From NCBI RefSeq assembly GCF_020177055.1, contig NZ_JAIQXT010000001.1:558001-622000 (forward strand): 64,000 nucleotides of DNA, given 5' to 3'. This DNA is from Sphingomonas sp. R647 (GTDB lineage Bacteria > Pseudomonadota > Alphaproteobacteria > Sphingomonadales > Sphingomonadaceae). Every line of letters begins with the position of its first letter. Within the stretch, counting starts at the first letter, position 1. A program made the translations under genes and the position numbers. Below are positions 6,067 to 33,454 of the stretch, piece by piece. The notes under the pieces are model-generated. The model was given only the letters and a program-made list of their open reading frames with translations, did not search any database and was not told the DNA's origin.

Positions 6067-7503
6067 ATGACACAAGCAGAAACAATCGTCGCCGAACTGG
6101 ATCGGCTGCACACCGCCTCCGTCACCCGCCTGCGTGAGGCCCTCGATCTCTATCTGACCCAGGGGATCGCCCCGGATCCGCAGCACCGTCACGACGGCAG
6201 CTTCGCCTATCCCGAAATCCGCGTCCGCTACCGCAACGAGGTCGATCGCCCGACCCCGGCGCGCAGCTTTGGCCGCCTTGTCGAGCCCGGCGACTATGCA
6301 ATCAGCGTCACTCGCCCCGCGATGTTCGCCGATTATCTGATCGAGCAGCTGACCCTGCTGATCGAGGATTATGACGTCGAGGTCACCGCGACCACCGGGC
6401 GTCAGGAAATCCCCTTCCCCTATGTCATCGACCCTAGCCATGTGCTGAAGATGGATCAGGTGTCGGTGCTCGAACTCGCGCGGCATTTCCCCGCGACTGA
6501 GCTCGCGCATATCGGCGACGAGATCGCCGATGGCAGCTGGATCAGCCAGGATGGCACCCGCCCGCTCGCGCTGTTCGACGCGCTGCGCACCGATTTCAGC
6601 CTCGCGCGGCTGCGCCACTATACCGGCACGCCGACCGAGCATGTCCAGCAGTACATCCTGTTCACCAACTATCACCGCTATGTCGATGAATTCGTCAGCT
6701 GGGCGGCGGAGCAGGTTGGCGAAGGCAGCCGCTTTACCGGCGTGTCCGGGCCGGGCGGCATGATTTTCAAGGCCGGCGACGACCCCGAAATGCTGCTGAC
6801 CGACAGCGCGTGGCGGCGGCACCAGATGCCGGCATGGCATCTGATGGCTGAGGACGGCAGCGGGATCACGCTGGTGAACATCGGCGTCGGCCCGTCCAAT
6901 GCGAAGACGATCACCGACCACCTCGCCGTGCTGCGGCCCGAGGCGTGGCTGATGATCGGCCATTGCGGCGGCCTGCGCCCCAGCCAGCGCATCGGCGACT
7001 ATGTCCTCGCCCACGCCTATCTGCGCGACGATCATGTGCTCGACGACGTGCTGCCGCCCGAAATCCCGATCCCCGCCATCGCCGAAGTGCAGCAGGCGCT
7101 GGCCCGCGCCGCCGAGACGGTATCGGGCCAGTCGGGCGACGAACTCAAGCGCCGCCTGCGCACCGGGACGATCGTCACCACCGACGATCGCAACTGGGAA
7201 CTGCGCTTCTCGCGTTCGGCGCTGCGTTTCTCGCTCAGCCGTGCGGTCGGCGTGGACATGGAGAGCGCGACGCTCGCCGCACAGGGCTATCGCTTCCGCG
7301 TCCCCTACGGCACGCTGCTGTGCGTGTCGGACAAGCCGCTGCATGGCGAGCTGAAGCTCCCGGGCCAGGCCAACCGCTTCTACGAGCGCGCGATTGCCGA
7401 GCATTTGAAGATCGGGATCGAAGCCTGCGAGCAACTGCGGCGCGAGGGCGCCAAACTCCACAGTCGCAAGCTGCGCGCGTTCAACGAGCCGCCCTTCCGG
7501 TAA
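6067..7503 (+). CDS. amn: AMP nucleosidase
   Basis: 478 residues, as in other bacterial AMP nucleosidases. It splits AMP into adenine and ribose 5-phosphate, lowering AMP pools and supplying adenine salvage. The N-terminal AMP nucleosidase domain covers roughly residues 1-170 (FAYPEIRVRY, GRLVEPGDYAISVTRP). The C-terminal half is a purine-nucleoside-phosphorylase fold with LVNIGVGPSNAKT, MIGHCGGLRPSQ and GVDMESATLAAQGY, the last carrying the nucleoside-binding Met-Glu. The TTG at 6061 is in frame but the ATG at 6067 is preferred. It is a single gene between two hairpin-bounded stress-type genes. Confidence 0.95.
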   Translation: MTQAETIVAELDRLHTASVTRLREALDLYLTQGIAPDPQHRHDGSFAYPEIRVRYRNEVDRPTPARSFGRLVEPGDYAISVTRPAMFADYLIEQLTLLIEDYDVEVTATTGRQEIPFPYVIDPSHVLKMDQVSVLELARHFPATELAHIGDEIADGSWISQDGTRPLALFDALRTDFSLARLRHYTGTPTEHVQQYILFTNYHRYVDEFVSWAAEQVGEGSRFTGVSGPGGMIFKAGDDPEMLLTDSAWRRHQMPAWHLMAEDGSGITLVNIGVGPSNAKTITDHLAVLRPEAWLMIGHCGGLRPSQRIGDYVLAHAYLRDDHVLDDVLPPEIPIPAIAEVQQALARAAETVSGQSGDELKRRLRTGTIVTTDDRNWELRFSRSALRFSLSRAVGVDMESATLAAQGYRFRVPYGTLLCVSDKPLHGELKLPGQANRFYERAIAEHLKIGIEACEQLRREGAKLHSRKLRAFNEPPFR

Positions 7504-26630: not shown

Positions 26631-26662
26631 TCTTCTTCTTCTTCTTCTTCTTCTTCTTCTTC
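26631..26662. repeat. (TTC)n microsatellite
   Basis: An uninterrupted 32-base run of the trinucleotide TCT/TTC (10-11 units) lies directly after the REP-like hairpin and 32 bases past the pccA stop (pccA is on the other strand). It is outside any coding region. Confidence 0.95.
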
Positions 26663-26694
26663 CTGATCCCCCGGCCGGCCTCGACCCGCACCCC

Positions 26695-28704
26695 TCACTC
26701 AAACTCCAAGATCGCGGCATCCACCGCCAGGCTCTCGCCCGCGGCGAAGTTGATCGCCTTGACCACGCCCGCTTTCTCGGCGCGCAGGATATTCTCCATC
26801 TTCATCGCCTCGACCACCGCCAGCGGCTGCCCGGCCTCGACCTTCTCACCCTCGCCCACCTCGATCCGCGTCAGCAGCCCCGGCATCGGCGCGAGCAGGA
26901 AACGGCTCATATCTGGCGGGATCTTCTCGATCATATGGCGGGCAAGTTCGGAGACGCGTGGGGGAAGGACCGTCACCTTGTGTGTCGCCCCGCGCGTCGT
27001 CAGCGTCCAGCCGGCCCGCGTCCGTGCAACCCGCACCGCGAGCGCAGCATCGCCCGAACGCGCCACCGCCAGCCGATCCCCCGGCGACCATTCGACGTCA
27101 CCGGCAATCGCGACGCCATCGACCACCGCGCCATCGCCCACCGTCACTGCATGGTCGACACCGCCGATCCGTACGACCCAGTCGCACGACGTTGCCGGAT
27201 TTGCTCCCAACTGCCCCGAAATCTGCGCTGCGCGCTCCGCCTGCCGCCAATGCACCGCCGCCGCCACCGCAGCGAGCTGTCGGGTCAGGTCCACATCAGC
27301 AGGAGCACCGTCAAACCCATCGGGATATTCCTCCGCGATAAACCCGGTGGTCAGCGCGCCTGAGCGAAACCGCGGATGCTGCATCAGCGCGGAGAGGAAA
27401 TCGACATTATGGCCAAGCCCGTCGATCTCGAACGCATCGAGCGCCGCGACCTGCAAGTCCGCCGCCTCGTCGCGGGTGTTGCCCCAGGTGATCAGCTTGG
27501 CGATCATCGGATCATAGAACATGCTGACCTCGCCGCCCTCGGCAACGCCATCGTCGACGCGGACATACCCGTCGCCACCGACAGCGCCATAGGGCGTCTC
27601 CTGCGCCGCCGGCGGGGCATACCGCACCAGCCGCCCGGTGCTGGGCAGGAACCCGCGATACGGATCCTCGGCATAAACCCGGTTCTCGATCGCCCAGCCG
27701 GTCAGCTTGACCTCATCCTGCGTGAACGCCAGCCGCTCGCCCGCCGCGACCCGGATCATCTGCTCGACCAAATCGAGCCCCGTAATCGCCTCGGTCACCG
27801 GATGCTCGACCTGCAGACGGGTGTTCATCTCGAGGAAGTAGAACCCCTCCCCGGTCTTGTCCGCACCCGAAACGATCAGCTCGACCGTCCCGGCGCTGTA
27901 ATACCCCACCGCCCGCGCCAGCGCGACCGCCTGCTCGCCCATCTTGCGGCGCATCTCGGGCGTGACGAAGGGCGACGGCGCTTCCTCGACCACCTTCTGG
28001 TGCCGCCGCTGAATCGAACATTCGCGCTCGCCCAGATAGACGATGTTGCCATGCTGGTCGCCGATCAGCTGTATCTCGATATGGCGCGGCTGTTCGATGA
28101 ACTTCTCGATGAACACGCGATCGTCGCCGAACGACGCCAGCCCCTCGCGCTTGGTCGCCTCAAAGCCTTCGCGAACGTCCTGCTCGCTCCACGCCAGCCG
28201 CATTCCCTTGCCGCCGCCGCCGGCCGATGCCTTCATCATCACGGGATAGCCGATGTCCGACGCGATCTTCACCGCCTCATCGGTATCGGCGATCTCGCCC
28301 AGATAGCCGGGGACGACATTGACCCCCGCCGCCTTGGCGAGCTTCTTGGACTCGATCTTGTCGCCCATCGCCGCGATCGCATTAGCCGGCGGCCCGACAA
28401 AGGCGATCCCCGCCTCCGCACACGCCTTGGCAAAACTCTCGCGCTCGGACAGGAAGCCATAGCCCGGATGAATCGCGTCCGCGCCAGTAGCCTTGGCCGC
28501 CGCCAGGATCAGGTCAGCCTTGAGATAGCTCTCCGCCGCCGGCGCCGGCCCCAGCCGCACCGCCTCATCCGCCATCAACACATGCGGCGCGCGCGCATCC
28601 GCGTCGGAATAGACCGCAACCGTCGCGATCCCCATCCGCTTGGCGGTGCGGAACACGCGACACGCGATCTCACCACGATTGGCGACCAGGATTTTCTTGA
28701 ACAT
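26695..28704 (-). CDS. pccA: Propionyl-CoA carboxylase alpha subunit (biotin carboxylase + biotin carrier)
   Basis: 669 residues. Residues 1-450 are the ATP-grasp biotin carboxylase (FKKILVANRGEIACRV start, MKASAGGGGKGMRLAW glycine loop, EMNTRLQVEHPVTE). A linker/BT domain comes next, and the biotinyl domain at the C-terminus has EAMKMEN with the biotinylated Lys near 634. With PccB it carboxylates propionyl-CoA to methylmalonyl-CoA. It is the last gene of the minus-strand propionate run, 8 bases after the esterase gene. The first 84 nt exist in a diverged second copy at the start of that esterase gene. Confidence 0.95.
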   Translation of the reverse strand: MFKKILVANRGEIACRVFRTAKRMGIATVAVYSDADARAPHVLMADEAVRLGPAPAAESYLKADLILAAAKATGADAIHPGYGFLSERESFAKACAEAGIAFVGPPANAIAAMGDKIESKKLAKAAGVNVVPGYLGEIADTDEAVKIASDIGYPVMMKASAGGGGKGMRLAWSEQDVREGFEATKREGLASFGDDRVFIEKFIEQPRHIEIQLIGDQHGNIVYLGERECSIQRRHQKVVEEAPSPFVTPEMRRKMGEQAVALARAVGYYSAGTVELIVSGADKTGEGFYFLEMNTRLQVEHPVTEAITGLDLVEQMIRVAAGERLAFTQDEVKLTGWAIENRVYAEDPYRGFLPSTGRLVRYAPPAAQETPYGAVGGDGYVRVDDGVAEGGEVSMFYDPMIAKLITWGNTRDEAADLQVAALDAFEIDGLGHNVDFLSALMQHPRFRSGALTTGFIAEEYPDGFDGAPADVDLTRQLAAVAAAVHWRQAERAAQISGQLGANPATSCDWVVRIGGVDHAVTVGDGAVVDGVAIAGDVEWSPGDRLAVARSGDAALAVRVARTRAGWTLTTRGATHKVTVLPPRVSELARHMIEKIPPDMSRFLLAPMPGLLTRIEVGEGEKVEAGQPLAVVEAMKMENILRAEKAGVVKAINFAAGESLAVDAAILEFE

Positions 28705-28712
28705 TGCAGCCC

Positions 28713-29603
28713 CTATTGGCTCGATTGCGGAAAAAGCTGACGCAGCGCCGCAAGCGCAGCCCCATGATAGATTGTCGCGTGGGTCTCGTCGGGACGCGGC
28801 GCATAGGTCCAGGCGAGCGCAGCTGGCGCCTTGTCCTTGAGCAGCGCGGCAAAGGGCGCGACGCCCATCCCCTGCTCATTCGCAACGGTCAGCCACAACC
28901 GCCCATGCGCCTTCGGCAACAGCGCGGGCGCGGCCTTCACCAGCGCCTCATTGTCCCACCACAGGCTGGGGCTGATCGCGATCCAGTCGTCGAACAGATC
29001 GGGCGCGCGCAGCATCGTCTCAACCACGAACAGTCCGGCGAGCGATTCCCCGATCAGCGCATCCTCGCCGCTAGTGCGATAGCTCTTCTCGACCCATGGC
29101 TTCAGCTCGGCGGCGATGAAACGGCGAAAGCGTTCGGACTGGCCCGCCGTCGGATAATCGGCCTTCAGCTTGGCATCGGTCGCGATCGGGAAGGCCAGCT
29201 CGTTTCGCCGATCGACGCTTTCGATCCCCACCACGATCATGTCGCGCGTCGTACCGACAATCGTGCCGAGTTGGGCAAGGCCTGAGATATGGTGGAAATC
29301 CTGCTCGATCCCGCCGTCAAGCACATAGAGCACAGGGTAGAGCTGGCTTCCCTGCGCATAGCCCGGCGGCAACCAGACGTTGATCGTCCGTACACCGCCC
29401 ATGACGGCGGAGGGCAGCTTGTACGACTGGCCGATGACGATGGGGGTCGGCATGCCCTGCGCCAGCACCGGCAACGGCAGCAGCAGCATCAGAACAGCGA
29501 GCAGCAAGCGGCTCAACACGGTCGCCAGCAACATGCGCTCGGCGGCGCGGAACACGCCTCCCGTAATTTCTCGACGATTGGCCATCGGGATCGTCTTGAA
29601 CAC
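28713..29603 (-). CDS. Exported esterase (esterase D/IroE-like alpha/beta hydrolase) with a pccA-derived N-terminus
   Basis: 296 residues from the GTG at 29603, or 273 from the ATG at 29534. The catalytic part has VLYVLDGGIEQDF, ALIGESLAGLFVVE (Ser nucleophile in G-E-S-L-A-G), and a late ETHATIYHGAALAAL with the His. This matches the putative-esterase family that includes ferri-siderophore esterases. From residue 24, MLLATVLSRLLLAVLMLLLP forms a signal peptide. Residues 1-28 (MFKTIPMANRREI...) are clearly homologous to the PccA N-terminus, a fossil duplication. If 29534 is the true start, the upstream copy is only leader. It sits 8 bases before pccA in the same operon; its substrate and any role in propionate metabolism are unknown. 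Confidence 0.75.
   Translation of the reverse strand: MFKTIPMANRREITGGVFRAAERMLLATVLSRLLLAVLMLLLPLPVLAQGMPTPIVIGQSYKLPSAVMGGVRTINVWLPPGYAQGSQLYPVLYVLDGGIEQDFHHISGLAQLGTIVGTTRDMIVVGIESVDRRNELAFPIATDAKLKADYPTAGQSERFRRFIAAELKPWVEKSYRTSGEDALIGESLAGLFVVETMLRAPDLFDDWIAISPSLWWDNEALVKAAPALLPKAHGRLWLTVANEQGMGVAPFAALLKDKAPAALAWTYAPRPDETHATIYHGAALAALRQLFPQSSQ
29520..29603 (-). repeat. Diverged duplication of the first 84 nt of pccA
   Basis: Aligned without gaps to the pccA 5' end (28621-28704), 62 of 84 bases are identical, beginning at the start codon and stopping abruptly after codon 28. The protein alignment keeps MFK-I--ANR-EI---VFR-A-RM--ATV. No stop codon has arisen in the copy. Confidence 0.85.
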
Positions 29604-29611
29604 CCTTCACT

Positions 29612-29715
29612 CCCCTCCCGCCTGCGGGAGGGGCCGGGGGAGGGCCTGTCCGCGCGCGGTGCAATTCGTTATGAGGGACAGGCCCTCCCCTAACCCCTCC
29701 CGCAAGCGGGAGGGG
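29612..29715. repeat. REP doublet (BIME-like nested palindrome)
   Basis: Two copies of the CCCCTCCCGC/GCGGGAGGGG hairpin (29612-29633 and 29694-29715) flank a perfect 15-bp inverted repeat (GGGGAGGGCCTGTCC at 29637-29651, GGACAGGCCCTCCCC at 29676-29690) around a 24-base centre. The whole is symmetrical. It sits between a small membrane protein gene and the esterase start. Confidence 0.9.
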
Positions 29716-29719
29716 GATT

Positions 29720-29977
29720 TCAGTCAAGTTCTCGCCGGAGCAGCCAAGTTCTGGCCGTTTGGTAAATCAAATGGATGGCGATCGGTACGCTGAGCCACCC
29801 CGCCAAGCTGAGATAGGCAGCCCAGATCGGCCAGATTGCTCCATCCCCTTCGCACCAAGGGAAACCTTTGCAGTCACCATCGCTGCTGACGAGCAGTTCG
29901 ATGCCAAAGGGCAGCCATCCAAAGATGAGCAGCAGGCCCACAAGACATCCCACGACCCGGAGAGCGAGTAGACTCAC
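29720..29977 (-). CDS. Small two-helix membrane protein
   Basis: 85 residues with hydrophobic segments at about 2-27 ([20 protein letters not shown]) and 48-72 ([20 protein letters not shown]). A Cys pair in the connecting loop ([13 protein letters not shown]) may form a disulfide in the periplasm. The GTG start overlaps the bioB stop by four bases (GTGA), so it is translated with bioB. No known family is recognised. Confidence 0.65.
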
Positions 29978-30969
29978 TCCGCCGCCTCCAGCTCCGCCTT
30001 CACCTCAGCTTGCATCGCCCGCATCCCCAGCCGCGCAAACAGCGCCGCGTCCTTGTCGTCACCCGCATTGCCGGTGGTCAGCAGCTTGTCGCCGGTGAAG
30101 ATCGAATTCGCCCCCGCCATGAAGCAGAGCGCCTGCGTCTCATCGCTCATGCTCTCGCGCCCTGCGGACAGCCGCACCATCGACTCCGGCATCGTGATCC
30201 GCGCCACCGCAACCGTGCGGACGAACTCGATCTGGTCGATCTTCGCCAGCGGCGTGTCGTGGAGCATGTCGCCCAGCACCGTGCCCTTGACCGGCACCAG
30301 CGCGTTCACGGGCACACTCTCGGGATGCTTGGGCAGCGTCGCCAGTGCATGGATGAAGCCGACGCGGTCGCCGCGCGTCTCGCCCATCCCGACGATCCCG
30401 CCGCAACACACGTTGATCCCCGCCTCACGCACGTGGTCGAGCGTCTCCAGCCGGTCCTCGAACGTCCGCGTCGTGATCACCTCGCCATAGCGCTCGGGCG
30501 AGGTGTCGATATTGTGGTTGTAATAATCCAGCCCCGCTTCGGCGAGCTGCGCCGCCTGCCCCTCGGTCAGCATGCCCAGCGTCATGCACGTTTCCATGCC
30601 CATCTGGCGCACGCCCTTCACCATCTCGACGATGGCGGGCATGTCGCGGTCCTTGGGGTTGCGCCACGCCGCGCCCATGCAGAAGCGCGACGAGCCATTA
30701 TCCTTGGCCTGCGCCGCCGCCTGCAGCACCGCACGCACGTCCATCAGCTTGGTCGCCTTCAGGCCTGTCTCGGCATGGGTCGACTGATTGCAATACCCGC
30801 AATCCTCCGGGCACCCGCCGGTCTTGATGCTGAGCAGCGTCGACAGCTGCACCTCATCTGCCGCGAAATGCGCGCGGTGGACGGTGGCGGCCTGATAGAC
30901 CAGCTCCATAAACGGCAGGTCGAACAGCGCGGCGATCTCGTCGCGGGTCCAGTCGGTACGGGTGCTCAC
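29974..30969 (-). CDS. bioB: Biotin synthase (radical SAM)
   Basis: 331 residues. It inserts sulfur into dethiobiotin to give biotin. The radical-SAM cluster motif is [11 protein letters not shown] (Cys-x3-Cys-x2-Cys), followed by the second-cluster residues in [32 protein letters not shown] and [11 protein letters not shown]. The frame is open to 31335 but the upstream part overlaps another gene; the GTG at 30969 overlaps the preceding stop (GTGA) and gives normal length. Its place inside the propionyl-CoA operon fits, since PccA needs biotin. No other bio genes are in the window. Confidence 0.95.
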
Positions 30970-31315
30970 ATCAAAACCTTGATCCAAGAGTAAAGAAAGC
31001 CGCCGACCCCGAGGCCCAGGAACATCATCGCCCCCTGATTGGTCAGCCACGCGGAGCGCGGTACCGGCACATGACGCTGGCGGGAACGTAAAATCGACGC
31101 GGTACAGCTGAGCGCGCACAGGCCTGAAACCGCCAGAAACACCGTCAGTCCCGCGATAACGGGGCCGGGTATCTTCTGCCCCTGCGGCGACTGCGCAATC
31201 GACAGAATGCCGCCAAGCCCCAACAACGCCAGCGACAGCAGATGCTTCGAATAATCGTAAAGCAGCATCTCCTTGTCGAACCCGGGCTCCGGGTCCGGCT
31301 TGACGGCGTCGTCGC

Positions 31316-31319
<4 letters not shown>
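30966..31319 (-). CDS. Small membrane protein in the propionate/biotin operon
   Basis: 117 residues with an acidic cytoplasmic start ([19 protein letters not shown]) and three hydrophobic segments at about 28-45, 54-78 and 94-114. The start ATG overlaps the methylmalonyl-CoA mutase stop and its end overlaps the bioB GTG, so it is tightly coupled on both sides. I recognise no family. The position suggests a conserved operon member, not a chance ORF. Confidence 0.7.

Positions 31320-33454
<2,135 letters not shown>

Follow-up and report, generated by a model that had tools for sequence, protein, structure and literature searches.

A gene for an esterase in Sphingomonas sp. R647 begins with a piece of pccA, the gene that follows it. 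This piece, the first 28 codons of a pccA with a GTG start, is identified by the alignments described below as a genuine remnant of a pccA 5' end, and it is read in frame with the esterase (Table 1). By the same comparisons it is no copy of the pccA now present in the window (the whole stretch of DNA analysed, 64,000 nucleotides); it is the start of an esterase-less pccA that stood on its own leader and GTG. Two haplotypes of the variable slot between bioB and pccA, one without and one with the esterase, very probably recombined in a one-off event to give the window. The names bioB, mcm and pccB, and the labels HK and argS, are presumptive. The family matches of pccA, to biotin carboxylase and propionyl-CoA carboxylase BT domains, fit its name.

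Table 1. Features of the bioB-pccA region of the window (G015 is a relative that lacks the esterase at this place)
Feature	Position in window	Strand	Basis
bioB, upstream edge of the variable bioB-pccA slot	29974..30969	-	Conserved neighbour
Small gene, 85 aa, upstream of the leader	29720..29977	-	In 2/295 genus genomes (own and G015)
Relic leader: dispersed palindromic repeat, ~110 bp, ending GGGAGGGGAGTGAAGG directly before the GTG	29604..29719	-	5/116 differences to the G015 pccA leader
pccA relic: first 28 codons, GTG start, in frame with the esterase	29520..29603	-	62/84 to own pccA, 65/84 to the GTG-started G015 pccA
Fused ORF, pccA relic plus esterase, 296 codons	28713..29603	-	ORF reads from relic into esterase
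Esterase proper, PF00756, signal-peptide-like front	28713..29519	-	Pfam E 5.7e-25; N-terminal comparison with relatives
Esterase-pccA spacer, 8 nt	28705..28712	-	Equal length and similar sequence in relatives G056 and G274
Intact pccA, ATG start	26695..28704	-	ORF list, Pfam, comparison with relatives

The pccA Relic

Aligned without gaps, the relic (29603-29520, minus strand) and bases 1-84 of pccA (28704-28621) are identical at 62 positions, and the relic lies 899 bp upstream of the gene. The first-pass annotation, which had given 62/84 without gaps and a distance of about 0.9 kb, was correct in these figures. The relic is in the frame of pccA and reads VFKTIPMANRREITGGVFRAAERMLLAT, which aligns with 28 pccA residues. 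Past base 84 there is no further match to pccA and the esterase signal peptide, called by eye rather than by a predictor, comes next. That the frame is kept and that the similarity stops at the signal peptide, two further points of the annotation, can both be seen in this alignment.

The best match to the relic DNA outside its own genome, in a DNA search of the genus, is in G015. There the slot between bioB and pccA is ~1.57 kb long and contains no esterase; a small gene and a palindromic leader are followed by an intact, GTG-started pccA, and this GTG sits exactly where the window has the relic. The leader differs between the two genomes at 5 of 116 bases. The pccA start of G015 differs from the relic at 19 bases (65/84 identical), compared with 22-25 differences for the other nine pccA starts compared, that of the window included. 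Only the relic and G015 have ACC as codon 28; the other nine starts lack it. Because leader, GTG, position, closest start sequence and the ACC at codon 28 are all shared with G015, the relic is assigned to an esterase-less pccA, and the finding of this esterase-less relative makes the relic traceable to a source haplotype. G015 is a draft assembly, judged 83% complete, and the sole relative in which an esterase-less haplotype bears this leader.

These comparisons bear on two simpler accounts of the relic. Chance or convergent similarity has a negligible probability. The relic matches the window at a mean of 22/84 positions (SD 4.4) and at 47/84 in the best unrelated place on either strand, against 62/84 for pccA, and G015 has a pccA at precisely this position; no point in favour of chance was found, and it was ruled out. 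A local duplication, in which the 5' end of the window's own pccA was copied upstream of the esterase and no second haplotype took part, would suit a relic and a pccA that share one genome and one strand and are 0.9 kb apart. It is very unlikely nonetheless, as the relic stands on a leader and GTG of the G015 type and is nearer to G015 than to its own pccA.

The Leader Repeat and the Small Upstream Gene

The relic leader is one copy of a dispersed palindromic repeat of ~110 bp (29610-29719 in the window), of which many whole or partial copies occur in the same genome (L051-L068) and in three relatives. Six copies, the leader included, are found at the same place in another species, with 3-16 differences in 103-116 bases. 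For the five copies other than the leader the differences are 3/110 and 4/104 (G015), 6/105 and 16/103 (G026) and 13/111 (G290). Beside these, the 5/116 of the leader is ordinary. Conservation of the leader was dropped as functional evidence and, since other shared copies can be just as conserved, does not argue for a role in translation. The leader has a predicted fold of -100.6 kcal/mol (z -8.2). Rfam gave no match across 28500-31500 at the gathering threshold, and a literature search for palindromic repeats of Sphingomonas, judged by title and abstract opening, gave no paper on the subject.

The small gene is 93% identical between the window and G015. Its dN of 0.032, compared with a dS of 0.44, indicates purifying selection. 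It has no Pfam match at E ≤ 0.001.

Distribution of the Relic

The fusion was found in the window only. The 400 bases that precede the conserved part of the esterase were compared in 41 distinct loci. The relic DNA scores 84/84 there in the window and no better than 41/84 in the other 40, one of which (L163) has masked bases in the searched stretch. The first-pass annotation had named the same N-terminal segment in esterases elsewhere as a finding that would speak against it; no such case appeared among these 40 loci. A second copy of the pccA start upstream of the gene was likewise confined to the window among 36 distinct starts of biotin-carboxylase genes for which 300 or more upstream bases were available (34 pccA genes, the window's included, and two paralogues of its own genome; duplicates and shorter loci were dropped), the next best place scoring 45/84. 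In a search of the family that gave 50 esterase matches, the alignment starts from residue 1 in the window only; the next starts are at residues 8 (G638), 16 (G424), 19 (G495) and 24 (G409), matches beyond 20 retrieved loci being judged for the relic by alignment start only. In G638 the bases directly before the signal peptide are masked, and farther upstream the reading contains stops and no pccA motif. A relic that belongs to the esterase family in general was ruled out, as among the loci compared it precedes the window's esterase only.

The relic DNA itself has matches in 37 of 295 genus genomes (two in its own and one in each of 36 others) and none in 258. Many of the 258 probably carry an intact pccA all the same, so that this search was insensitive; it scored three candidates per genome, and the position of the matches was checked for the fetched loci only.

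The Esterase and the Variable Slot

The esterase is a clear member of PF00756 (89 bits, with a curated cut-off of 22). At E ≤ 1e-50 it occurs in 14 of the 295 genus genomes, where the query began at codon 24 and is uninformative on the relic, and in 50 of 397 sampled family genomes, where the query was the whole fused protein; both counts include the genome of the window. It lies between bioB and pccA, with no relic, in G056, G274, G045, L034, L035, L036, L038 and others, which represent several genera. The extra 5' copy and the esterase thus do not always go together across relatives, an association that the annotation had proposed to check. A biotin-carboxylase start is present in 43 distinct loci, and in 36 of them the slot could be measured. 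It contains the esterase in 14 (the window and some loci of other genera included) and lacks it in 22, two of which have an esterase elsewhere within the locus. As the loci were chosen for their esterase or relic matches, the counts should not be read as frequencies; the slot of G015 lies outside the 36. Besides the esterase, the slot (28705-29973 in the window; L090-L117, L162-L176) contains varied small ORFs that differ by species, some of which presumably resemble DUF2442, LprI/DUF1311 or small membrane proteins.

The esterase stop is followed after 8 nt by the pccA ATG in the window, G056, G274, L034 and L038, and after 9 nt in L036 and L079; in G045 another ORF lies between the two genes. 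In its spacer and the end of its esterase the window matches G056 and G274, both free of the relic. Between the window and six carriers the esterase dS is 0.61-1.08, and it exceeds that of mcm and bioB in every pair measured. On this ground, recent acquisition of the esterase from one of the sampled carriers was rejected. The order esterase-pccA itself is old. The first-pass annotation had proposed that an esterase landed after codon 28 of an ancestral pccA copy. The half of this proposal that concerns pccA is borne out: an in-frame pccA 5' relic with leader and start is present, as the comparison with G015 makes plain. The esterase as a newcomer is unsupported, because the order without a relic is old, being found in several genera, and the esterase has diverged at least as much as core genes.

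Decay and Age of the Relic

The 19 differences between the relic and G015 fall at codon positions 1, 2 and 3 in the numbers 9, 3 and 7, and no gaps have arisen. For example, the relic reads NRREIT where pccA has NRGEIA. Residue changes number 11 in 28, and 11.7-12.2 are expected for 19 random substitutions (95% range from 8 or 9 to 15). Since the observed changes match random expectation, the decay appears neutral; nothing in the relic points to selection, and constraint appears to have been lost, as in a pseudogene fragment. The open frame of the relic was considered as evidence of translation and dropped, 68-79% of simulated decays staying open.

Divergence of the relic from G015 is 0.27 (JC). 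The window branch is shorter than this, 0.10-0.12, when measured at the fourfold sites of mcm, bioB and pccA codons 1-450 (P = 0.002 for at least 18 changes). Between the window and G015, dS is 0.44-0.51 for the small gene and two more neighbours, and the divergence of the relic fits half of this (P = 0.53 at 0.25). The relic may be older than the split of the core genes, it may change faster than fourfold sites, or the rate may be locally high. The relic is taken to be old, dating from around the split from G015 or from before it.

Probable Origin by Recombination of Two Haplotypes

Parts of both haplotypes are recognisable in the window. On the left are the leader and pccA start of G015, and on the right the esterase, spacer and pccA of G056 and G274. 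The similarity to pccA ends around codon 28-29, where the esterase begins, and the junction is non-homologous. The left haplotype would have had the order small gene, palindromic repeat, GTG-started pccA (as in G015), and the right one the order esterase, 8 nt, ATG-started pccA (as in G056 and G274). A single recombination event would have joined them in frame, at or just before the native start of the esterase, with an illegitimate side somewhere from pccA codon 24-29 to the start of the esterase and a homologous side in pccA or in the genes upstream. A complete pccA would have been left, together with a piece of 84 bases that then decayed in a neutral pattern. The route and its direction are inferred, and either haplotype could be the incoming one. 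Homology-facilitated illegitimate recombination (HFIR) would be such a route; it is read here from the end product, and a circle with the esterase and the pccA start could have led to this arrangement as well, through integration by a single crossover. In pccA no clear donor tract was seen. The sites that separate the groups (codons 4-43) are mixed, with codon 4 of the esterase-less type, codon 26 of the carrier type, and codons 33 and 43 again of the esterase-less type. This counts against the proposed joining, as do the single relative with such a leader, the high divergence of the relic and its freedom from gaps.

The order could also be reversed. If leader, relic, esterase, pccA were the older arrangement, G015 would have lost its esterase by recombination of relic and pccA within the shared TGTTCAAGA. 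The first 10 bases are identical in the relic and G015 and all 19 differences fall in the other 74, as such a loss would leave them, and, judged by fourfold sites, the relic seems to predate the split of the core genes. However, an unhit run of 10 bases has P = 0.065 by chance and is a weak sign, the ACC at codon 28 common to the relic and G015 alone is not predicted by loss, and an earlier event that made the relic is still required. Loss of the esterase in G015 is unlikely, and the joining of two haplotypes in the window is the preferred origin.

Further variation was observed in and around pccA. Its BT domain (about 26905-27265 in the window, codons ~480-600) occurs as two very different alleles. 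The window and G026 are alike (dN 0.056), as are G015 and G290 (dN 0.063), and between the pairs dN is ~0.41; the first 450 codons differ little. This split looks like allele swapping. In G026 (L119; pccA from 8321, bioB near 7183) the frames are shifted in pccA near codon 322 and in bioB near codon 52, which may be sequencing error. Between the downstream end of pccA and a convergent gene, a run of TTC/TCT triplets (26631-26663) lies beside a palindrome arm.

Possible Translation of the Fused Gene

It is plausible that the esterase is translated from the captured pccA GTG, with an extension of 28 residues before the signal peptide, and that the leader of the relic lends it translation signals, as the first-pass annotation had suggested. 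A GGAGGGG motif lies in the leader eight bases 5' of the GTG; its use is uncertain because it is enclosed in a strong predicted hairpin. The fused ORF contains two other candidate starts, ATG24 and GTG29, so that the translated ORF need not be the fused one. The latter (29519-29517) is a candidate native start of the esterase; in the same column G045 also has GTG, G056 has one nearby and G274 has no obvious start. A working chimera can be put forward tentatively, at rather less than even confidence. In it, the captured leader and GTG would drive the esterase, and the decayed pccA residues would form a long n-region before the signal peptide. Translation of an exported enzyme would then be governed by the signals of a core metabolic gene, and pccA would depend on signals in the esterase spacer. 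For annotation, a start called at the GTG at 29603 may misplace the N-terminus of the esterase.

Relation to Known Systems

Orphan immunity genes of the type VI secretion system (T6SS) of Vibrio cholerae are a case of modular insertion, for which a route similar to HFIR has been proposed (PMC5361080; see also PMC3240628). As in those clusters, part of an older locus would have stayed behind in a shifted position when a new module came in (PMC5361080). In contrast to the V. cholerae clusters, where whole genes remain and modules are added repeatedly (PMC5361080), the window has one 84-base 5' stub, formed once and fused in frame. A literature search on chimeric genes with illegitimate recombination gave no paper on the subject, as judged by titles and the openings of abstracts. 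Like the PF00756 esterases of its relatives, the window's gene occupies the bioB-pccA slot before pccA; unlike them, it has a front of 28 codons derived from pccA, the only one among the 41 distinct esterase loci.

No new mechanism is needed for this locus, a further case of a type of rearrangement already known. It illustrates cleanly that, where recombination strikes a variable slot within an operon, the translation start of one gene can pass to its neighbour and a readable scar can remain.
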